A stretch of 64,000 nt of DNA, taken from NCBI RefSeq assembly GCF_026157085.1, contig NZ_JANPVN010000001.1, positions 2,267,001 to 2,331,000 of the forward strand, in the 5' to 3' direction. Below are positions 30,124-50,565 of this stretch, piece after piece. The notes under the pieces are model-generated. The model was not told where the DNA came from. It saw only the letters and a list, made by a program, of their open reading frames with translations, and searched no databases. The position numbers and the translations under genes are program-made. The DNA comes from Sphingomicrobium arenosum (GTDB lineage: Bacteria > Pseudomonadota > Alphaproteobacteria > Sphingomonadales > Sphingomonadaceae). Each line of letters begins with the position of its first letter. The stretch's first letter is position 1.

Positions 30124-30548
30124 TCGATAAAAGTTGGTTGCCGCTGGTGATCGCGGCGGGCGTCTTGGCAGGATGCGGCGAGACCGCGCCGACCGAAGAC
30201 AAGGACGTGACGGTGCGCAGCGAAGCGCAGAACCGGCTGTTCGACCTCAGCCCGGTCAATCGCGATATCGCCCTGAAGCGCGCGATCCGCGCCTCGGGGC
30301 TGCGCTGCGAGCGGGTGACGCGCTCGGGCTATGTCGCCGACTATGAAAATCTCATGATGTGGACCGCGAGCTGCGACGACGGGCGCGACTGGGCGGTCTT
30401 CATCGGCGCCGATGATTCGGCGCAGGTGCGCAATTGCGTCGATGTCGAGGCGCAGGGGTTGCCCGCCTGCACCATCACCCGCGCCGACAGCGAGGGGCAG
30501 AATGCGCCCGAACTGGGCGAGGTCGAACCGGGGTCGAACGAACCCTAG
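30120..30548 (+). CDS. Small lipoprotein of unknown function
   Basis: 142 residues from the TTG at 30120, which overlaps the previous stop and has GGAGG seven bases upstream. The signal ends in the lipobox VLAGC. The mature part contains SGLRCERVTRSGYVADYENL and WTASCDDGRDWAVFIGADDSAQVRNC, a small Cys-containing domain. I know no function. It is convergent with the lasso protease gene and overlaps it by four bases. Confidence 0.65.
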   Translation: MIDKSWLPLVIAAGVLAGCGETAPTEDKDVTVRSEAQNRLFDLSPVNRDIALKRAIRASGLRCERVTRSGYVADYENLMMWTASCDDGRDWAVFIGADDSAQVRNCVDVEAQGLPACTITRADSEGQNAPELGEVEPGSNEP

Positions 30549-30964
30549 GCGTCGCCGGCCGGCGGGAAGCGCGCGATTTCGGTGAACTCGTGCGCGTTGC
30601 GGTGGCCGATCACGGGCACATCGCCCGAACGCACCCAGACATGCGCCTCGAGCCCGTCGTCGCTCCGGCGGGTGCCATAATGAACGACGACGTCGCAGCC
30701 GCGCCGCTCGAGCATGCGCTTGGCCGCGATCGCCTGGACGAAACATTCGGTCTTCCACGGCAGCCGACGGGCCCAGCCGCGAACCGCGCGCTCGATCATG
30801 TCGCGATCGCCGGGCGACACGCCGGGGCGGTGCGAGATGTGCGCCGGCACCAGCGCCACGAAGGGGCGGAAGCGCAGCGCGGCGACAGCAGCGAGATGAT
30901 CGCCCAGCGCCTCCAGCTTGACCCGCAGCGGCAGCGGTGGCGGCGTGGATCCGCCGTGCGTCAC
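30545..30964 (-). CDS. Lasso peptide B2 protein (transglutaminase-like leader protease)
   Basis: 139 residues from the GTG at 30964, which overlaps the cyclase stop (GTGA). The family's catalytic Cys is in WKTECFVQAIAAKRMLERRG and the His in LEAHVWVRSGDVPVIG, with an Asp expected shortly after; this Cys-His-Asp layout is that of lasso B2 proteins. It removes the leader peptide in the cytoplasm, delivering the free N-terminal amine for ring closure. It works with B1, which brings the leader. Confidence 0.88.
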   Translation of the reverse strand: MTHGGSTPPPLPLRVKLEALGDHLAAVAALRFRPFVALVPAHISHRPGVSPGDRDMIERAVRGWARRLPWKTECFVQAIAAKRMLERRGCDVVVHYGTRRSDDGLEAHVWVRSGDVPVIGHRNAHEFTEIARFPPAGDA

Positions 30965-32688
30965 GGCGCGCCGTCCGCGACCCATTGGGCAAAGGCGGCG
31001 GCGCTCATCGCGCGGCCGAGATGGATGCGATAACGCACGACCTGATCCTCATCGTCCCAGCCCGAGGCGGGCCAGTTGTCGAGTGCGCGCCGCATCGCGC
31101 GCACGTCGAAAAGCTCGGCACCGCGATGGCCATCCTCGAGCCGGTCGAGGATGCGCTTCATCAGCCCGGCATCGCGCAGCGCGGCGGCGCGCCAGTCGCC
31201 GCCCTGGATCGCGGTCATGCGCGGGTCGCGGATGTCGGGGGGCAGGCGCGGATCGAGCAGTGCGCGCTGGAGCCCGCGCGGCACGCCGTCGTGGCGGAAG
31301 ATCGCCTCGGGCAGGCGCAGGCTGAATTCGACCAGCTCGCGCTCGGCATAGGGATCGACCAGTTCGATGCCGTTGCGCCGCTCGGCGGCGCGGTAGCGAC
31401 CGGCGGGATCGACCTGCGCGATATAGTCGCGCAGCCGCCGCTCGGGAAAGGCGAGCCCATCGCCGGGATAATCCTGCCGCACCCCGAGCGCGATCTCGGG
31501 CGCCATGGCGGCCTTGATCCGCGCCGAGCGGGGATTGGCGAACAGGTCGCGCACATGGCGCCGTGCCGAAGGGCGGGCGAGCAGCCGGGCGAGCCAGTCG
31601 GGCGGTGCGGCGAGGAGCGAGGCGCGGATGTCGCGCCCGCCATTGGCGGCGATGGCGCGCGCCCAATCGCCCCAGCGCCGCGCCGCCGCCAGCGCGATGG
31701 TCGGTCGCATGCCATTGTGGCCGAGCGTGTAATTGCCCTGCAGCCCGTCGAAGATGCGCGTCATGCCGAGACTGCTGGCGAGTGCCTGGCAACCATCGAC
31801 CCAACCGAGGTTGGAGGGGTTGTACATCGGGCGCTGATAGGCGGCATAACCCCAATTGAGCGCATCGCGCAGCCCGCTCGGCGCGGCGCGCAGGCGATGG
31901 TGCTCGCTCCCGCCCACGCTGCGCAGCCCGGCATGGGCGAGCGGATATTCATCGACCAGCTGGACCGCCGAGGGGTCGGCATGGGCGCTGGGCGAGCCGG
32001 TGATGGCGCGCGGCGTGCGCCCGAGATGCGCGAGCCGCGAGAGGATGACATTGCTGTCGATCCCAGAGGAGAGGAGCAGCGCGTCGCAATCACTGCCCCC
32101 GATGGCCTCGTCGAGCAGCGTAGCGGCGGTGTCGCGCGCCTCCTCGAAACCGATGTCGAGCGGCTCGAAGCTCGGCGTCCACCATGTTTCGTGGCGGGCG
32201 CGGCCATGCTCGATGACGACAACATGGCCGGGTTCGACGCGCGTGACGCCATCGAAGGGCGACCGTGGGCCTTCTTCCGGCAGGGTCAGGAAATAGCGCG
32301 CGAGCCACTGTTCATCGAGCCGCGGCGTGCCGCCGATCCGTGCCAACGGCAGGGCATCGCGGTCGAGATCCACTGCCTCGCCGTCAAGACGATAATGTAG
32401 CGCCTTGCGCCCGAGCGCGTCGCGGAACAGGAGGGTGCGGGTCGGGGTCTGGAGGATGCCGACGAAACCGCCGCGCAAGCCATCGAACGCCGTCCAGTCG
32501 AGCCGCGCGAGCCGCCGCGCGATGTCGCTGGCCTGCTCGGCGCTCGGCGGTCGAAGCGCGTCGAGCCACAGGCGAACATCATCGCCGGTGGCGAAGGGTG
32601 GGGGCGAGACGGTGTCGCGCCCGCGCTCGGTCCACGGCTCTAGACGGCGCGGAAAAAGAGGGGAGCTGCTGGTGCCGCTCAGCTGCAA
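30961..32688 (-). CDS. Lasso cyclase (asparagine-synthetase-like, protein C)
   Basis: 575 residues from the TTG at 32688, overlapping the last ten bases of precursor gene A1. The N-terminal ~190 residues resemble the glutaminase-like domain of asparagine synthetase B but lack the catalytic Cys2 (it starts MQLSG), as in lasso cyclases. The ATP pyrophosphatase loop is LLLSSGIDSNVILSRL near residues 205-220. The enzyme adenylates the Asp or Glu side chain of the core peptide and joins it to the N-terminal amine. No clearly better start codon exists upstream or downstream. Confidence 0.9.
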   Translation of the reverse strand: MQLSGTSSSPLFPRRLEPWTERGRDTVSPPPFATGDDVRLWLDALRPPSAEQASDIARRLARLDWTAFDGLRGGFVGILQTPTRTLLFRDALGRKALHYRLDGEAVDLDRDALPLARIGGTPRLDEQWLARYFLTLPEEGPRSPFDGVTRVEPGHVVVIEHGRARHETWWTPSFEPLDIGFEEARDTAATLLDEAIGGSDCDALLLSSGIDSNVILSRLAHLGRTPRAITGSPSAHADPSAVQLVDEYPLAHAGLRSVGGSEHHRLRAAPSGLRDALNWGYAAYQRPMYNPSNLGWVDGCQALASSLGMTRIFDGLQGNYTLGHNGMRPTIALAAARRWGDWARAIAANGGRDIRASLLAAPPDWLARLLARPSARRHVRDLFANPRSARIKAAMAPEIALGVRQDYPGDGLAFPERRLRDYIAQVDPAGRYRAAERRNGIELVDPYAERELVEFSLRLPEAIFRHDGVPRGLQRALLDPRLPPDIRDPRMTAIQGGDWRAAALRDAGLMKRILDRLEDGHRGAELFDVRAMRRALDNWPASGWDDEDQVVRYRIHLGRAMSAAAFAQWVADGAP

Positions 32689-32813
32689 TTCATCGAACTG
32701 CCGCGCCGGGTATCCTGCCCTTCGCAGATGCTCGTGCCGGACATGCGCGCATGCTTGGCGGGCAGGCGATCGAGGCGCGGGGCCTTCCAGGGGGCTTTGA
32801 CGGTGGTCTTCAT
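32679..32813 (-). CDS. Lasso peptide precursor A1
   Basis: A 44-residue gene read from the DNA: ATG at 32813 with GAGGA upstream, TGA at 32679-32681. The leader has the pattern KAxWxAPxxxRLxAKxARM shared with A2, which lines up with the known leader motif Y-xx-P-x-L for B1 binding (Trp in place of Tyr). Alignment puts the core at residue 26: GTSICEGQDTRRGSSMNCS. Gly1 and Asp9 predict a 9-residue ring; Cys5 (ring) and Cys18 (tail) could form a disulfide as in BI-32169-type (class III) lassos. Position -2 is Met, not the usual Thr. The last residue is Ser, a likely kinase target. An AT-rich stretch (TTATATATAG) upstream may be its own promoter. Confidence 0.85.
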   Translation of the reverse strand: MKTTVKAPWKAPRLDRLPAKHARMSGTSICEGQDTRRGSSMNCS

Positions 32814-32924
32814 GGGTCCTCTATACGCATCTTCGCCGTCAAAGCGGCAACAAATTCCGGCCGGTTACCTAGAGCGACGATAACGCCTCGTCTATGTCTA
32901 TATATAACACCGCTTTCACCGACC

Positions 32925-33071
32925 TCAGCTCGCGCAGAGCTTGGCCTTGCCCTCCTTGCCCGAACAACCTTCGGCCGCCGGACCATTGCCCGGCATGCGC
33001 GCGGCCTTGGCCGCGAGCCGGGTCATGGTGGGCGCCGTCCAGGACGCTTTGGGGGTGGGTGGGTGTCGCAT
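32925..33071 (-). CDS. Lasso peptide precursor A2
   Basis: A 48-residue gene, ATG at 33071, TGA at 32925-32927, 111 bases upstream of A1. Its leader aligns without gaps to that of A1 through Trp, Pro, Arg-Leu, Lys and Arg-Met. The core is expected at residue 28: it begins GNGPAAEGCSGKE and ends GKAKLCAS, 21 residues. Only Glu7 sits where a lasso ring can close, which predicts a 7-residue ring, unusually small. Cys9 and Cys19 both lie in the tail, so a tail-tail disulfide (class IV-like) is possible. Met is again at -2 and Ser is the last residue. The ribosome site before 33071 is weak; an internal ATG at 33026 would remove the conserved Trp. Confidence 0.8.
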   Translation of the reverse strand: MRHPPTPKASWTAPTMTRLAAKAARMPGNGPAAEGCSGKEGKAKLCAS

Positions 33072-33117
33072 ATCGATTCGGCAATATCGCTTCTAAACAG
33101 GTGTGCTTTATGAAGGG

Positions 33118-34806
33118 TTAAAGAGCGCGCGCGACCCTAGCGTGGCGATCGAGCTGCGCAAGGCTCTGCGGGCGATGCGAGACCATGAGGATGGCCATGT
33201 CGGGCGCGGCGGCGCGGATTTGCGCGAAAATCGCAGCCTCCGCCTCGAGGTCGAGCGCGGCAGTCGCCTCGTCGAGGAGGAGCAGGCGGGGCTGTCGCAG
33301 CAACGCGCGCACGAGCGCGAGGCGCTGGCGCTCGCCCCCCGACAGGGTCGCGCCATGTTCTCCCAAGGGGCGGTCGAGGTCGGGGCCGAAGCGCTCGCGC
33401 AGCGGGTCGAGGCCCAGCGCGCTAATCCAGCGGTTCGCATCGGCGGCGGCCGCCTCGGGCAGGTCGTCGAGCTCGAGCATGGCGCGCGGGGTGGTGCCGA
33501 GCAGGGGATCGTGCTGGCCGACATAAGCGAGCCCACGCGCCCAGTCGGGTCGGGCGGCGAGATCGATCGGCGCACCGTCGACCAGCAGGCGCCCGCCCAG
33601 CGGGGCGATGAGCCCGGCGATGGTGTCGAGCACAAGCGTCTTGCCCGAGCCCGAGGGGCCGGTGAGCGCGATCGCCTCCCCCGGCGCGATGGCGAGGTCG
33701 AGCGGGGCGGTGGCGATTTTGCTCGCGACGCCGGCGACGAGGCCCTCGACCTTCAATTCGCGCCAGTCGAGCGCCTCGCCCATATCGGCGGCGACCTCCG
33801 CCTGCGGTGTCGCCCGCGCGTCGGCTGCCGCGAACAATTCGGCAAGATCGGTAAAGCCCGGCGCATTGACCGCGACCGCCTGCCACGCATCGACCAGCGT
33901 GCGCAGCGGGCCGTAGAGCCGCCCGAACAGGAGCAGCGTGAGAATGAGGATGGCGGGGGCCACGTCGATCCAGAAGAGCCCGGCGGCCACCAGCCCGACA
34001 AGCGCGACAGCGGCGACCAGCTGGCCGACGAACCCCGCCAGCACCTGTCCCTCGTCGATGGCGATGAAAGCGTCGCGCTCCTCCGCCAGCCGGGCGCGGT
34101 AACGGTCGAGAAAGCGCGGCGCGCGGCCCTCGGCCAGGGCGGCCTTGAGGCCCGCGCGCAGCCGATAGGCCTCGCCGATGCTCTTGTCATAATGGTCGGC
34201 GAGCTTGCCGGCGCGGCGCTGGCTGGCGCGCAGGAAGGGCCAGCCGATGGCGATGCTGATGGCGGCGAGCGCCATGGCGAGGAGGGTCAGCGCCGGCGCC
34301 AGCGCGAGCGCGATGAGGCCCTGCACGGCAACGATGAACAAGGCGACCAGCCCGATCTCGACATAGGAGGCCGCCGCGCCCGCGCGCATGATGTCGACCT
34401 GCAGCATGCGTTGGAGGCGGGGCGGGCCCAGCGCCTCGGCCTCGCGCCAGCCGATGGCGAGCAGCGACACGGCGACCGCCTCGCGCAGCCTTGCGGGGTA
34501 GGATTGGCCGATGCGCGCGCGCTGGCGGGCACGCGCGGCGATCAGCATCGCGCGCAGGATCATCACGCCGAGGAACAGCGCCAGTAGCAGCTCGATCGGG
34601 GGGAGCGGTGGAAACCAGTCGGGCAGGCCCGCCGCCGTCATCCCCTCCGCTCCGCCCGTGGCAAGCGCGATGATGGGGACGAGGAGCGTGATCCCCACCC
34701 CCTCGACCAGCGCGGCGAGGAAGGCGACGAGGAAAAGGCGGCGAAGGCCGGGGCCCTCGCGGCGGGCGAGGTCGGCGACCAACGCGCGGCGGACCGCCAT
34801 GCTCAT
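33118..34806 (-). CDS. Lasso peptide ABC exporter (protein D)
   Basis: 562 residues from the ATG at 34806, overlapping the B1 stop (ATGA). It is a half-transporter with six membrane helices in about 1-320 and an ATPase domain in 350-562: Walker A LTGPSGSGKTLVLD, signature GATLSGGERQRLALVRALL, Walker B LLLLDEATAALD. It has no N-terminal peptidase domain, consistent with a separate leader protease. It should export the finished lasso and give self-protection. The gene lies 46 bases upstream of A2. Confidence 0.88.
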   Translation of the reverse strand: MSMAVRRALVADLARREGPGLRRLFLVAFLAALVEGVGITLLVPIIALATGGAEGMTAAGLPDWFPPLPPIELLLALFLGVMILRAMLIAARARQRARIGQSYPARLREAVAVSLLAIGWREAEALGPPRLQRMLQVDIMRAGAAASYVEIGLVALFIVAVQGLIALALAPALTLLAMALAAISIAIGWPFLRASQRRAGKLADHYDKSIGEAYRLRAGLKAALAEGRAPRFLDRYRARLAEERDAFIAIDEGQVLAGFVGQLVAAVALVGLVAAGLFWIDVAPAILILTLLLFGRLYGPLRTLVDAWQAVAVNAPGFTDLAELFAAADARATPQAEVAADMGEALDWRELKVEGLVAGVASKIATAPLDLAIAPGEAIALTGPSGSGKTLVLDTIAGLIAPLGGRLLVDGAPIDLAARPDWARGLAYVGQHDPLLGTTPRAMLELDDLPEAAAADANRWISALGLDPLRERFGPDLDRPLGEHGATLSGGERQRLALVRALLRQPRLLLLDEATAALDLEAEAAIFAQIRAAAPDMAILMVSHRPQSLAQLDRHARVARAL

Positions 34807-35099
34807 GGTTCGACGACGACCAGTCCGGCCGCCACGGCCTGCTCGAGGAAGGGCAGGATATCGGCGAGGCACTGATCGGGCGCGACATCATGGCTCTGCG
34901 TGATGGCCTCGACCAGCGCGGCGATGGTGGTGCCGCTGCCGATGCGATCCCAGACGATCGTGGCGATGGGGTCGAGCCCGAACACTTCCCCCGCCTTGGG
35001 ATCGAGCGCCATCAATTCGCCATCGACCCGCCCGGTCGGCACGGCCTGGTTCTGGCGGATGCGCGTGTCGGGGGTGAGGTTGAGGGGTGCCTTTGCCAT
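34803..35099 (-). CDS. Lasso peptide B1 protein (PqqD-like RRE)
   Basis: 98 residues from the ATG at 35099. The winged-helix PqqD-like fold is indicated by LTPDTRIRQNQ, ALDPKAGEVFGLDPIATIVWDRI and ILPFLEQAVAAGLVVVEP. B1 binds the leader (Trp/Tyr, Pro and Leu positions) and hands it to B2 and C. It is the first gene of the minus-strand run. Only 24 bases separate its ATG from the ATG of the divergent kinase gene. Confidence 0.9.
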   Translation of the reverse strand: MAKAPLNLTPDTRIRQNQAVPTGRVDGELMALDPKAGEVFGLDPIATIVWDRIGSGTTIAALVEAITQSHDVAPDQCLADILPFLEQAVAAGLVVVEP

Positions 35100-35123
35100 G
35101 GCGCTGGGGTAAGCCCGCTCGTC

Positions 35124-36053
35124 ATGCAGGGCAAGAGCGGCACAAGCGGCGGGCATCACCGCCATGGCGCCTTCGGGTTGCGCTTCGAGAGCAGCATGCT
35201 GCTGCCCGAACTCTATGCCGATACGTCGGGGGAGGCGCCCGACGTGCATATCACGATGCGCCGCGATGCCGCGCTGCGCATCGATGAGGAAACCGACTGG
35301 CGGCTCGAACCCGACGGAACGGTCGCGTTCGAACTGCATGGCATCCGCTATCGCGTGCGCGGCGGGCGCGAGATCGAGGTGGTCGCGCCGCGGGAAACGC
35401 CCGAGGCGATGATCCGCGTGTGGCTGCTTGGCTCGGTCATGGGGGCGCTGCTGCTCAAGCGCGGGATGCTCACCGTCCATGCCAATGCCGTCGCCTTTGG
35501 CGATGGCGAGGCGGCGGCCTTCCTCGGCGACAGCGGGGCGGGCAAGTCGACGCTGGCGGCGAGCCTGCGCGAGGCGGGGTTGAGGCCGCTCTGCGACGAC
35601 CTGCTCGCGGTCGAGTTCGATGACGACGGCACCGCATGGGTCCGGCCCGGCATCCCGCGCATCAAGCTCGGCCCGACGGGCGCGGCAGCGCTCGGGATCA
35701 GCCTCGAGGGCTTGCCACGTGTCGCCCCGCAGATCGACAAATATCAGCTCCCGCTCGACCGCTCGGCGCCGTGGACCGAGCGGTTTCGCCTGACGCGGCT
35801 CTATCGTATCGACCAGGGCGAGTTAGCAATTGTGCCCATTAAGGGGCGCGAGGCGGCGATGAGCCTGCTCGACAACCTCTTTCGCCCGGCGATCGGCGAA
35901 GCGCTGGCCGACGATGATCGGCGTTTCCTGCAGGCGATGGCGCTGGCGGACGGCTGCGCCTGCTTTTCCTTCTCGCGGCCCTTCGCGCTCGACGAGGCGC
36001 TGCGGCATGCCCGTGCGCTGCAACAGCATCTGCAGAGACCGCTCGGCGCCTAG
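35124..36053 (+). CDS. HPr-kinase-like protein, predicted lasso precursor kinase (K)
   Basis: 309 residues from the ATG at 35124; the ATG at 35196 would remove part of the typical start (GAFGLRFESSMLLPEL). The P-loop is FLGDSGAGKSTLAASL near residues 133-148, followed by LRPLCDDLLAVEF, the HPrK-type metal-binding acidic pair. Proteins of this type in lasso clusters (paeninodin type) phosphorylate the side chain of a C-terminal Ser of the precursor. Both A1 and A2 end in Ser, which fits. A general role as HPr kinase is unlikely given the cluster position. Confidence 0.87.
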   Translation: MQGKSGTSGGHHRHGAFGLRFESSMLLPELYADTSGEAPDVHITMRRDAALRIDEETDWRLEPDGTVAFELHGIRYRVRGGREIEVVAPRETPEAMIRVWLLGSVMGALLLKRGMLTVHANAVAFGDGEAAAFLGDSGAGKSTLAASLREAGLRPLCDDLLAVEFDDDGTAWVRPGIPRIKLGPTGAAALGISLEGLPRVAPQIDKYQLPLDRSAPWTERFRLTRLYRIDQGELAIVPIKGREAAMSLLDNLFRPAIGEALADDDRRFLQAMALADGCACFSFSRPFALDEALRHARALQQHLQRPLGA

Positions 36054-47584: not shown

Positions 47585-48613
47585 ATGGCTTATCCATCTT
47601 ACACTGCAGTTGACCTCTTCGCAGGTTGTGGAGGCCTTTCGGTAGGGTTGTCCGATGCCAACATTCGCATCTTGGGCGCAGTCGAATGCGATAATCTGGC
47701 AGCCGAGACATATCGGCTGAACCATCCTAAGACTAAGGTTTTTGAGAGCGATATTCGTGGTCTAGATCCATCGAAAGTGCGAAAGTCGCTCGGCCTTGAG
47801 AAGGGTGAACTGACGCTTTTGGCTGGTTGCCCACCGTGCCAAGGATTTTCATCACTTCGCACAAGGAACGGTGGATACAGCGTCTCCGAGCCGATGAACG
47901 ATCTGGTGTTCGAGTTCGAGCGGTTCTGCAAAGAGTTTAGGCCACGGCTCATCATGCTAGAAAACGTACCAGGGTTGAGCAAAGATGTTCGGCTTAAGGC
48001 TCTAAAAACAAAGCTGAGCGCACTTGGTTACAAATGTAAGTCCGAAGTTTTCAATGCGATTAACTTCGGTGCAGCGCAGAAGCGGCGCCGGATGATATTG
48101 ATTGGTTCTTTGGATTCGGAGCCTGATTTTGCGCCACCTTTGAGTGCTAGCCTTAGTGTAAGAGATTTGATAGCGCACTTGCCTGAGCCGTCGAAGAGCA
48201 AAGACGCGATGCATAATTATCCGGTTAAACGTTCGGACAAGGTAAACGAGATCATATCGAAAATTCCGAAGGATGGCGGGAGTAGATCAAGCCTGCCTTT
48301 TCATTTAGTGCTTGAGTGCCATAAAAAAACAGACGGCTATAAAGACGTGTACGGTAGAATGGCTTGGGATAAGCCAGCGCCTACGATAACTGGGGGGTGT
48401 ATCAATCCTTCTCGCGGCAGATTCCTTCATCCTGAACAGGATAGGGCGATCACCTTGCGTGAGGCTGCAATCCTTCAGGGTTTTCCGGCATCATATGCGT
48501 TTTCTGCAAAGCGCGGCCGCTACCCTATTGCGCAAATGATTGGTAACGCCTTTCCGCCCTCATTTGCGAAATTGCATGCTGCTCGGCTTCTCCAATCATT
48601 GGGGTCTTCATGA
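47585..48613 (+). CDS. DNA (cytosine-5-)-methyltransferase
   Basis: 342 residues with the ordered motifs of a type II 5mC enzyme: I DLFAGCGGLSVGLS, IV AGCPPCQGFSSLR with catalytic Cys, VI MLENVPGLS, VIII NFGAAQKRRRMILIGS, and X YPIAQMIGNAFPP. GGGGGAGGGG precedes the ATG. The GC content is clearly below that of the surroundings. Its stop overlaps the start of the ATPase gene (ATGA), so the two form one unit. The recognition site cannot be told from sequence. Confidence 0.93.
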   Translation: MAYPSYTAVDLFAGCGGLSVGLSDANIRILGAVECDNLAAETYRLNHPKTKVFESDIRGLDPSKVRKSLGLEKGELTLLAGCPPCQGFSSLRTRNGGYSVSEPMNDLVFEFERFCKEFRPRLIMLENVPGLSKDVRLKALKTKLSALGYKCKSEVFNAINFGAAQKRRRMILIGSLDSEPDFAPPLSASLSVRDLIAHLPEPSKSKDAMHNYPVKRSDKVNEIISKIPKDGGSRSSLPFHLVLECHKKTDGYKDVYGRMAWDKPAPTITGGCINPSRGRFLHPEQDRAITLREAAILQGFPASYAFSAKRGRYPIAQMIGNAFPPSFAKLHAARLLQSLGSS

Positions 48614-50565
48614 TTGATAGTAAAAACGAGAAACTTTACTTGCGCTTTCATGGGCGGATAATAGACTCGCTCGGCATTCAGATGTACCAAAGCCCTGTAG
48701 CGGCAATCGCTGAACTAGTAGCAAATGCATGGGATGCCGATGCGGAAAACGTCAGGATTTCCTTGCCAGATGATGTCAGCGACCCTCAGGCGACCTTCAC
48801 AATCAAAGACGACGGTCACGGCATGTCGTTCGCAGAGTGTCAGGACTTTTACCTTAAGATAGGTCGAAACCGTAGAGAGAGCGATGGTGGCGATACTTCA
48901 GAGAAGGGGCGTCCGGTCCTTGGAAGGAAAGGGATTGGAAAATTTGCGGGATTTGGGATCGCTGAGGTTCTCGAAGTAGAAACAACTAGTAAAAAGACCG
49001 GCGAGCACACTAAATTTGTCCTAGATTTGGCCAATTTGCGAAGCTCCGAATACATTTCGGAGATCGCACAAGAGCTCCCGGTGCCGATCAAAGAAGGTCC
49101 CGATCCATCCAAAATTGAAAACCACGGTACAACGGTCACTCTCAAAAGGCTAAAGCTTTCCCGCCGTCCTAATAGCGAAGCATTCGCGAAATCAATGTCG
49201 CGGCGCTTCTTGGTCAACCAATCAGCTGATGATTTTCGGGTATTTGTTGAGGGGTCGCCGATTCCAGAAGATCGACTCCTCGCAGGAGTAGAGTTCGATT
49301 TTCCAAAGGATTTTCGGGATGATGAAGTCCCCGATGGCGTAAAAGTCGATGGAAACTGGGCTCAAGAAAAAGTTGGTGGAGGAAGAGTTCGCTGGAGGGT
49401 CTCGTTTACAAAAGATCCCATAGAGACAGAGGAGTTTAGAGGGGTTTCCGTATTTTGTGGAATAAAGATCGCGCAGACACCTTTTTTCTTCCATCTTTCG
49501 GGGGGTCTATCAGGCCAGCACGGGCAACAATACATGTTTGGCGAAGTTCAAGCGGACTTTCTTGATAGTCTTCATGACGACATAATTACGACTGAACGTC
49601 AGCGCATAAACTGGGAAATCGACGAGGCGAAGCCCGTATTGGAGTGGGGTCAAGAAAGACTAAAAAAACTTCTCCGGCTATGGAAAGAAAGACGAGCCGA
49701 GGAAAATATTGCTAAGATAGATAACAAGATTGCTGCGTTTTCCGGTAGACTAGAACGGCTGAACGCTCGTGAGCGCAGGATCGTAAAGGGCGCGATTAAA
49801 AAAATCGCGACGATCGAGACTCTCAAGCAAGAGCAGTTTGAAAGTCTAGCATCGGCTATTCTCACTGCTTGGGAGGGAGGCCGGCTGAAGGAACTCATCT
49901 CGGACGTGTCCGACGTGGAGGACATGAGCGAGGGGATCCTCCTGTCACTTCTTGCAGAGACCCAAGTACTCAATGCGCTACACGTTGCAGAAGCCGTTAA
50001 AGCCAAACTGGAAATCATTCGTGGCCTCGAACGACGCATCCGAGCGAAGGAACTCGAAAACGCTGTAAGGGATTACATCGCGAAGAATCCTTGGCTGCTC
50101 TCTCCAGAGTGGGAGACATTTAGAATCGAAAAAACGGTCAAAAATCTCGTTGAGGCCGCGGCAAAAGAGGCCAAGCTCGACAGTGACCCTGATTGGAAGA
50201 AACGAGTGGATTTGGTCCTGTCATCTGGCCGTCAGTTACTCATAGTAGAATTTATGCGGCCAGGACTTAAAGTTGATCGTGACCATCTGAATAGATTTCA
50301 GGAATATGTCGATATTCTTAGCATTAAGATTCATGCGAACACGAAGCTTGGCTTTTTAAATGTGTCAGGCCTACTCGTTGCGGAAAAACTCGCAGATAAT
50401 CCGGGGTTGCAACCGCTTTTCGATAGACTTCAACGCGCAGGCATGGAGTGCTTGGAGTGGGACGGGCTGCTCAAGCGCGCAGAATCGCAGTGGGACGAGT
50501 TCCTAGAAATTTTGGTTCAGCGTGCCCCGGATGATGATCGGTTGTCTGACCTACGAGCGAGTTGA
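48610..50565 (+). CDS. GHKL ATPase (MORC/MutL-like) with nuclease-like C-terminus, partner of the methyltransferase
   Basis: 651 residues. The Bergerat fold is in about 1-220: N-box AIAELVANAWDADA, G1 IKDDGHGMSF, G2 LGRKGIGKFAGFG. The middle (about 340-480) is rich in charged helices, with a coiled-coil stretch. The last 120 residues hold KKRVDLVLSSGRQLLIVEFM, which resembles the D...E-x-K core of PD-(D/E)xK nucleases (Asp534, Glu547) except that the Lys position is Met; activity is therefore uncertain. GHKL ATPases of the MORC/MutL type linked to methyltransferases are known from prokaryotic restriction-modification contexts. The expected role is restriction of unmodified DNA; this is inference. 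Confidence 0.8.
   Translation: MIDSKNEKLYLRFHGRIIDSLGIQMYQSPVAAIAELVANAWDADAENVRISLPDDVSDPQATFTIKDDGHGMSFAECQDFYLKIGRNRRESDGGDTSEKGRPVLGRKGIGKFAGFGIAEVLEVETTSKKTGEHTKFVLDLANLRSSEYISEIAQELPVPIKEGPDPSKIENHGTTVTLKRLKLSRRPNSEAFAKSMSRRFLVNQSADDFRVFVEGSPIPEDRLLAGVEFDFPKDFRDDEVPDGVKVDGNWAQEKVGGGRVRWRVSFTKDPIETEEFRGVSVFCGIKIAQTPFFFHLSGGLSGQHGQQYMFGEVQADFLDSLHDDIITTERQRINWEIDEAKPVLEWGQERLKKLLRLWKERRAEENIAKIDNKIAAFSGRLERLNARERRIVKGAIKKIATIETLKQEQFESLASAILTAWEGGRLKELISDVSDVEDMSEGILLSLLAETQVLNALHVAEAVKAKLEIIRGLERRIRAKELENAVRDYIAKNPWLLSPEWETFRIEKTVKNLVEAAAKEAKLDSDPDWKKRVDLVLSSGRQLLIVEFMRPGLKVDRDHLNRFQEYVDILSIKIHANTKLGFLNVSGLLVAEKLADNPGLQPLFDRLQRAGMECLEWDGLLKRAESQWDEFLEILVQRAPDDDRLSDLRAS

Follow-up and report, generated by a model that had tools for sequence, protein, structure and literature searches.

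The window analyzed here is a stretch of 64,000 nucleotides from Sphingomicrobium arenosum, from a 2.56-Mb genome of the Sphingomicrobium group. Its positions 30545–36053 (C1:2297545-2303053 in that genome) hold a cluster of seven genes with the makeup of a lasso peptide biosynthetic pathway. Six of these lie on the minus strand between 30545 and 35099 and read, 5' to 3', B1, D, A1, A2, C, and B2; the seventh, K, is divergent and runs on the plus strand from 35124. B1 (34803..35099, 98 residues) is a PqqD-like recognition element for ribosomally synthesized and post-translationally modified peptides (RiPPs), predicted to bind the precursor leaders. D (33118..34806, 562 residues) is an ATP-binding cassette (ABC) exporter with fused membrane and ATPase parts, whose ATG overlaps the stop codon of B1. 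The two small precursor genes are A1 (32925..33071, 48 residues; leader MRHPPTPKASWTAPTMTRLAAKAAR, probable core MPGNGPAAEGCSGKEGKAKLCAS) and A2 (32679..32813, 44 residues; leader MKTTVKAPWKAPRLDRLPAKHAR, probable core MSGTSICEGQDTRRGSSMNCS). C (30961..32688, 575 residues) is an asparagine synthetase-like macrolactam cyclase that starts with TTG (32688) within the end of A2, B2 (30545..30985, 146 residues) is a transglutaminase-like leader peptidase, and K (35124..36053, 309 residues) is an HPrK-related kinase facing away from B1.

This content and placement agree with the first-pass annotation of the window, which had put the recognition element, exporter, two precursors, cyclase, and peptidase on one strand and the kinase on the other. 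The “translational overlaps” that it described are found at three of the five junctions, B1/D (4 nucleotides, ATGA), A2/C (10 nucleotides), and C/B2 (25 nucleotides), and are lacking at the remaining two, where gaps of 46 nucleotides separate D from A1 and 111 nucleotides separate A1 from A2. All seven frames are open, without internal stops, and the TTG start of C agrees with the starts in S. aestuariivivum (P0002) and in the related locus L058. Because only 24 nucleotides lie between the B1 and K start codons (35099–35124), and the corresponding gene calls in L058 even overlap, the promoters would have to lie within coding sequence or the transcripts be nearly leaderless. Upstream of A2, the sequence AGAGGA ends 3 nucleotides 5' of the ATG and by eye makes a good ribosome-binding site. 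The gap between A1 and A2 (32813–32925) also holds an A+T-rich stretch, TTATATATAGACATAG, a possible inner promoter.

Family assignments for the encoded proteins come from several sources. Pfam matches over cut-off were obtained for B1 (PqqD, E 1.2e-15), D (ABC_tran, E 4.5e-28), C (Asn_synthase, E 1.2e-11), and B2 (Transglut_core3, E 2.3e-20). The sole NCBIfam model passed in the cluster is the lasso B2 equivalog NF033537 (lasso_biosyn_B2), with 68.1 bits against a cut-off of 33. The best NCBIfam match of B1 is to a ScmD-like model (39 bits, cut-off 100), D matches CydD and type I exporter models below cut-off, and K passes no curated cut-off in either NCBIfam or Pfam, so that its assignment rests on its catalytic motif. 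That curated cut-offs are mostly missed by the cluster proteins marks these proteins as divergent. B1 weakly matches TbiB1 (5v1u, E 1.6e-4) and a lasso PqqD chaperone (9x90, E 9.9e-4), C carries an SSGIDS motif, and B2 shows the Cys and His that we take to be those of the active site. C is the only match of its kind in the genome at E <= 0.001, and B2 is likewise a single match. One PDB sequence matched C, a nanobody (E 0.0094), and was dismissed as meaningless; matches of K to PEPCK are confined to the P-loop region.

In the kinase, His119, Gly135, Gly138, Gly140, Lys141, Ser142, Asp158, and Asp159 are invariant in all 20 sequences aligned, a set made up without L073 (no reading frame given), L049, L062, and L107, of which all but L107 show the motif. 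The same residues have been described in BsfK, in further lasso precursor kinases, and in the paeninodin-type kinases (PMC10368454, PMC9266682). As judged from this motif, K is a predicted HPrK-like precursor kinase with its catalytic residues intact. PadeK acts on its precursor in linear form, phosphorylating the C-terminal Ser, and the C-terminal Ser is also the residue phosphorylated by ThcoK and by SyanK of Sphingobium (PMC9266682).

A search of 7,999 database candidates with the cyclase gave ten matches, five of them (the window's own excluded) at 50% identity or more, the nearest named cyclase being that of S. aestuariivivum at 65%. Within the genus, cyclase matches occur in 42 of 71 genomes, mostly below 35% identity. 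A separate scan of genome contigs with the cyclase query found no relative. Twenty loci were read at up to 16 kb and the remainder in short form. The precursors of these loci fall into three kinds, distinguished by leader ends of the form LG.I.DV (type I), AGSAE (type II), and, in most cases, AK.AR followed by Met (type III); both window precursors are of type III. A precursor profile matched 14 of the 71 genomes, 10 of them clearly type III, the four weak matches (G300, G337, G350, and G360; E 4e-4 to 5e-3) being excluded from that count. In a tree of 39 cyclases, from which 18 of 57 loci were omitted for want of a classified precursor, the clades agree with precursor type: type III forms one clade (support 97/96), type I another (100/100), and type II a single, poorly supported group (48/15).

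Gene order and chromosomal site are similarly conserved. The order K-B1-D-A-C-B2 with K divergent recurs in L058–L061, L064, L066, and L072, and L062 has the same order with an NTP_transf_5 gene inserted between D and A, so that K stands divergent beside B1 in L058–L062, L064, L066, and L072. In genome G344 the cluster is divided over two contigs (L063, L107). A small unassigned gene and a cyclophilin gene flank one side of the cluster in nine of nine type III relatives, and genes for M28 and M14 peptidases flank the other side in all seven relatives with enough sequence, the remaining two showing a single flank. The 11 other loci, some of them read over a short length, gave no tblastn match at E 1e-8 to any of eight flank markers. 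The common flanks in all nine relatives point to vertical inheritance of the cluster, and recent acquisition was ruled out on the same grounds. When cluster order was compared among relatives, a check that the first-pass annotation had proposed, both order and site proved to be kept down to 31% cyclase identity. Relative to its L058 counterparts, the window shows 77% identity in B1, 67% in A1, and 63% in A2.

The precursors themselves match no family in NCBIfam or Pfam at E-values up to 1. In every one of the nine related loci, one or more precursors of this pattern adjoin the cyclase, with two each in L058, L059, and L060; that A1 and A2 are chance open reading frames was rejected for this reason and appears unlikely. 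Had the precursors not been conserved near the cyclase in relatives, the original assignment would have been in doubt by its own account, and both are conserved there. The ratio of nonsynonymous to synonymous differences per site (pN/pS) between the window and L058, computed without a significance test, is 0.46 for A1 (48 codons), within the range of five enzymes of the cluster (0.31–0.54), and 0.67 for A2 (43 codons), above it.

For comparison of core patterns, a set of 25 type III precursors was assembled: ten loci supplied 14 of them, an orphan pair added two, and the other nine are database proteins; among 18 such proteins, eight were duplicates or short readings of set members, and P0027, which has a type II core, was excluded. 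Candidates lacking the leader pattern were dropped as chance open reading frames (L006, L009, L011:165-260, L023, L047:2856-3032, two in L059, L066:7988-8134, L070:8730-8840, and L072:7365-7487), as were two that could not be assigned to a type (L013, L057). In the 14 precursors first aligned, a leader Trp and Pro, the Ala before the cut, and a Glu-Gly pair are invariant. The resulting subfamily pattern combines a W..P leader, Ala at position −2, a probable core with Met1 and a ring Glu at position 8 or 9, and usually a C-terminal Ser. With the core taken to start 15 residues after the Trp (17 after the Tyr in P0028), 23 of 25 precursors have Met at position 1 and the other two have Asn; Glu occupies core position 9 in 22 and position 8 in four (one has both), so that every member has Glu at 8 or 9. 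The C-terminal residue is Ser in 21 of the 25, as it is in all 19 type II cores, and this is the conserved Ser of type III, no conserved Ser being present at core position 3 in the same register.

Cys residues in type III cores follow a pattern of their own, numbering zero in 16 of 25 precursors, two in nine, and never one; among type II cores none of 19 has Cys. In the favored register, A1 would close a ring between Met1 and Glu9, with Cys at 11 and 21, and A2 between Met1 and Glu8, with Cys at 7 and 20, both ending in Ser; the cores of the sister species L058 have Cys at 11/21 and 8/21. From the occurrence of Cys as a pair or not at all, we infer a disulfide in both window precursors, linking tail to tail in A1 and ring to tail in A2. 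Two database entries are worth noting in this context. P0026 is a call of A1 from an inner ATG (window 33026-32925) that yields 33 residues without the leader motif, and a call of this kind would hide A1 from precursor searches. In P0027, a type II core follows a type III leader that nearly matches the one in L062, which suggests cassette-like exchange of cores.

Where the leader is cut determines which residue begins the ring. Cleavage after Ala-Arg, with Met as the first core residue, is somewhat favored. This register is best supported by P0028, a database protein with a classical Y..P.L...G leader: published spacing places the Tyr at −17 (PMC10368454), and this gives Met at core position 1 and Ala at −2. 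P0027, too, presents its type II core in the same register. Several observations count against Met1. P0028 is a weak match (E 0.31) on a 1.4-kb contig and lacks a C-terminal Ser; Ala at −2 was demanded by the filter for the 14 locus precursors, so that its invariance is partly not independent; and a cut one residue later also places Asp or Glu at positions 7–9 in all 25 precursors. Under this later cut, a possible though less favored alternative, the rings would begin with Pro in A1 and Ser in A2 and close on Glu8 and Glu7, and seven precursors with Gly first, four with Ser, and one with Ala would have a classical first residue; Pro, however, would come first in 13 of 25, residue −2, a known recognition position, would vary among Arg, Gln, Gly, Leu, and Thr, and the spacing in P0028, weak match as it is, speaks for Met1. 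A start two residues later similarly retains Asp or Glu at 7–9 in 25 of 25, provided that Asp9 serves as the ring residue in A2-like precursors, and puts Gly first in 19. That start was rejected, as the invariant Glu would fall at position 6 in the window A2, L059 A2, and P0024, and type II cores whose sole Asp is at position 8 would fail (L045, L049, L067, L070, L071, and L076).

Taken together, these features suggest a genuine phospho-lasso pathway that is probably active and represents a new subfamily. We assign a probability of roughly 0.75 to the reading that the cluster is functional, has been inherited vertically, and makes two related products by a phospho-lasso (macrolactam) route. 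A cyclase, a B2 peptidase, a recognition element, and precursors are all present, and each precursor has an acidic residue among core positions 7–9 (Glu9 in A1, Glu8 in A2). In the pathway envisaged, B1 would bind the W..P leader of A1 or A2, K would phosphorylate the C-terminal Ser of the precursor, and B2 would cleave after Ala-Arg, most likely ahead of Met. C would then activate Glu9 (A1) or Glu8 (A2) and close the ring on the new N terminus, the two core Cys would form the predicted disulfide, and D would export the product. The calculated macrolactam masses of A1 and A2 are 2143.98 and 2187.88 Da for cores beginning at Met and 2012.94 and 2056.84 Da for cores beginning one residue later; a disulfide plus one phosphate would bring these to 2221.932 and 2265.827 Da and to 2090.892 and 2134.787 Da, respectively. 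Protein families, conserved order and site, the cyclase clade, and the kinase motif all agree with the earlier claim that this region encodes a lasso-type pathway having two precursors and a kinase for tailoring. Its description as “complete” fits the minimal lasso pathway and is doubtful for the full tailoring pathway, as the nucleotidyltransferase lies 1.8 Mb away.

A number of observations weigh against this interpretation. B1, C, and K score below the cut-offs of the NCBIfam models for their proposed roles, with 37 bits against 80 for the lasso PqqD protein (lasso_PqqD_Bac), 34.9 against 525 for the lasso cyclase, and 34.3 against 200 for HprK_rel_A. Inspection by eye upstream of A1 showed no clear ribosome-binding site. 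A C-terminal Ser is lacking in four of the 25 (L059 A1 and A2, P0024, and P0028), and the L059 kinase motif is intact even so; BsfK, which phosphorylates Ser3 of its core (PMC10368454), is a further warning. Finally, the tails are poor in bulky residues, that of A1 having a single Leu, and threading is not assured.

This last point leads to the view that the products are branched-cyclic macrolactams that never thread or easily unthread, with phosphate or disulfide holding their shape, which seems doubtful. Of 19 type II tails, five have none of Phe, Trp, Tyr, His, Arg, Ile, Leu, or Met, and the tails of L062 (GTSGKS) and L063 (GASGKS) are comparably slight. The cyclase and B2 are nonetheless of the lasso kind, paeninodin, the product of a pathway with this type of kinase, has been placed among the class II lasso peptides (PMC9266682), and Lys, Arg, or the phosphorylated Ser could serve as a plug.

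The phospho-lasso pathway proposed here may not be confined to one locus. Kinase-type lasso pathways often include a nucleotidyltransferase (PsmN, BsfN). In the window cluster there is no NTP_transf_5 gene; the sole match in the genome (G000:C1:516593-517321; L101 9294-10415) belongs to a polysaccharide locus about 1.8 Mb distant on the same contig. There it adjoins a gene for an NAD-dependent epimerase; genes for a glycosyltransferase, a sugar transferase (Bac_transf), and a PglD-like protein are found within about 8 kb, and the only Poly_export match of the genome is 14.4 kb off. In G298, the genome with the nearest cyclase, two orphan type III precursors with cores MPGTGVGGEGCSGKVGKAYPLCSS and MPGAGSSGEGCSGKIGKANPLCSS and the same Cys pattern (L087 7548-7694 and 7880-8026 on G298:C1) lie about 1.64 Mb from the only cyclase match and adjoin an NTP_transf_5 gene and polysaccharide chain-length and export genes; the 16 kb around them contain no cyclase, B1, B2, D, or K match at E < 0.1. 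In G345, an NTP_transf_5 gene is found within the lasso cluster, between D and A.

Across the genus, matches over cut-off place NTP_transf_5 at 49 sites, 39 of which remain once 10 on contigs without a Poly_export match are set aside. Poly_export lies within 6 kb in 22 of these 39 (about 1% expected) and within 20 kb in 27 (about 3% expected), the expectations assuming two Poly_export genes per 2.5 Mb; as the genomes are related and kinship was not corrected for, this co-location may reflect few events. The tabulation omitted Bac_transf rows from genomes lacking NTP_transf_5, together with some rows from other contigs. Against a polysaccharide link, Poly_export is far from NTP_transf_5 in G308 and G077, with Bac_transf 22 and 25 kb away, and no close link exists in G197, G318, G320, or the second G309 copy; a chain-length kinase gene adjoins NTP_transf_5 in G308. 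Co-location of paeninodin clusters with capsule loci in Bacilli is already in print (PMC13381572), and a search of openly licensed papers turned up none on such co-location in alphaproteobacteria. One improbable but far-reaching extension of these observations is that a phosphorylated C-terminal Ser is a handle joining the lasso peptide to a sugar or exopolysaccharide, the NTP_transf_5 protein of the polysaccharide locus transferring sugar onto the Ser-phosphate. The peptide would thus decorate the polysaccharide coat of the cell rather than act as a free antibiotic, and the pathway would occupy two separate loci, a sister species having kept orphan precursors next to its transferase gene.

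It is very unlikely that the kinase and transferase instead belong to polysaccharide metabolism, their proximity to lasso genes being due to chance or frozen gene order. The association of NTP_transf_5 with Poly_export may indeed be one ancestral locus counted repeatedly, but K has kept its divergent position beside B1 in the eight loci listed above, the C-terminal Ser is kept in most precursors, and NTP_transf_5 sits inside the G345 cluster. Moreover, the eight type III genomes with Poly_export on the cluster contig show no Poly_export or Bac_transf match closer than 200 kb to the cluster. Least probable of all is that the cluster is decaying and silent, since, despite an N terminus of C that is short relative to the lasso cyclase model (profile position 138 aligns with residue 88), all frames are open, pN/pS is 0.31–0.67 across the seven genes versus L058, and site and order persist in distant relatives.

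Characterized systems show both shared features and differences. Kinase-bearing lasso clusters, including those of paeninodin (PadeK), ThcoK, Sphingobium yanoikuyae (SyanK), and pseudomycoidin (PsmK/PsmN), likewise have split B1 and B2, a cyclase, an ABC exporter, an HPrK-like kinase with His, P-loop, and Asp-Asp, a W..P leader, and a C-terminal Ser (PMC9266682, PMC10368454, PMC13381572). Unlike them, the window cluster has Ala for Thr at −2, two precursors with two core Cys each, the order K-divergent-B1-D-A1-A2-C-B2, and an NTP_transf_5 gene outside the cluster. Thr(−2) is a conserved lasso leader residue (PMC10368454), and the window leaders have Ala there in the favored register and Arg in the next. 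The first-pass label “paeninodin type” is thus apt as regards leader, kinase, and C-terminal Ser; it fails as regards residue −2, the lack of any precursor model match, and the remote NTP_transf_5 gene, and paeninodins are described as restricted to Bacillota (PMC13381572).

Other systems share different subsets of these features. The Bsf cluster of Bradymonas sediminis has a kinase, an N gene, discrete B1 and B2, and a residue other than Thr at −2 (PMC10368454); there, however, that residue is Ile and the kinase target is Ser3, whereas the window group conserves a C-terminal Ser. Lasso peptides of class III (BI-32169, 9401-LP1) and class IV (LP2006, pandonodin, felipeptins) have two Cys joined ring to tail, as predicted for A2, or tail to tail, as for A1, given a ring on Glu8 or Glu9 (PMC9266682); the text consulted mentions no C-terminal Ser kinase for their clusters, and the window disulfides are predictions from sequence. 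Metanodin, from a soil metagenome, also has an unusual first ring residue and a precursor overlooked by automatic annotation, and differs in keeping Thr(−2) and in having Asn1, reported as a first in 2025 (PMC12670498), where Met1 is predicted here. Loci for linear polyphosphorylated peptides (LPPs) and for paeninodins in Bacilli share a recognition element, an HprK-like kinase, an NTP transferase, and nearby polysaccharide genes, while LPP pathways lack a cyclase, use a signal peptidase-like protease, and belong to a different phylum (PMC13381572). Among openly licensed papers, none turned up that names “Met1” in a lasso peptide or that links lasso peptides to Sphingomicrobium.

Two further observations stand apart from the cluster. 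In type I (DV|AG) precursors of Sphingomonadales, the ring-closing position is occupied by Gln in 7 of 10 loci with a cyclase, all of one cyclase clade (L014, L017, L018, L020, L026, L030, and L055); of 60 database homologues (P0029-P0088), for which a nearby cyclase was not checked, 52 have this Gln and 47 have no core Asp or Glu. A Gln acceptor, through transamidation or prior deamidation, would if true break the lasso rule, with no bearing on the window, and no openly licensed paper naming such a type turned up. Elsewhere in the window, at 47585-50562, a C-5 cytosine methylase gene and an overlapping gene for a HATPase protein matching type II restriction models have a third-position GC of about 0.5 against about 0.85 around them; together they probably make up an acquired restriction-modification system.

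Paeninodins and LPPs have been described as having no known biological role (PMC13381572). Met as the first ring residue, if right, would extend the few first residues so far seen in lasso peptides. With its coherent clade, fixed locus, Cys-paired precursors, and transferase at a polysaccharide locus, the cluster offers a genetic handle in an alphaproteobacterium that parallels the situation in Bacilli.

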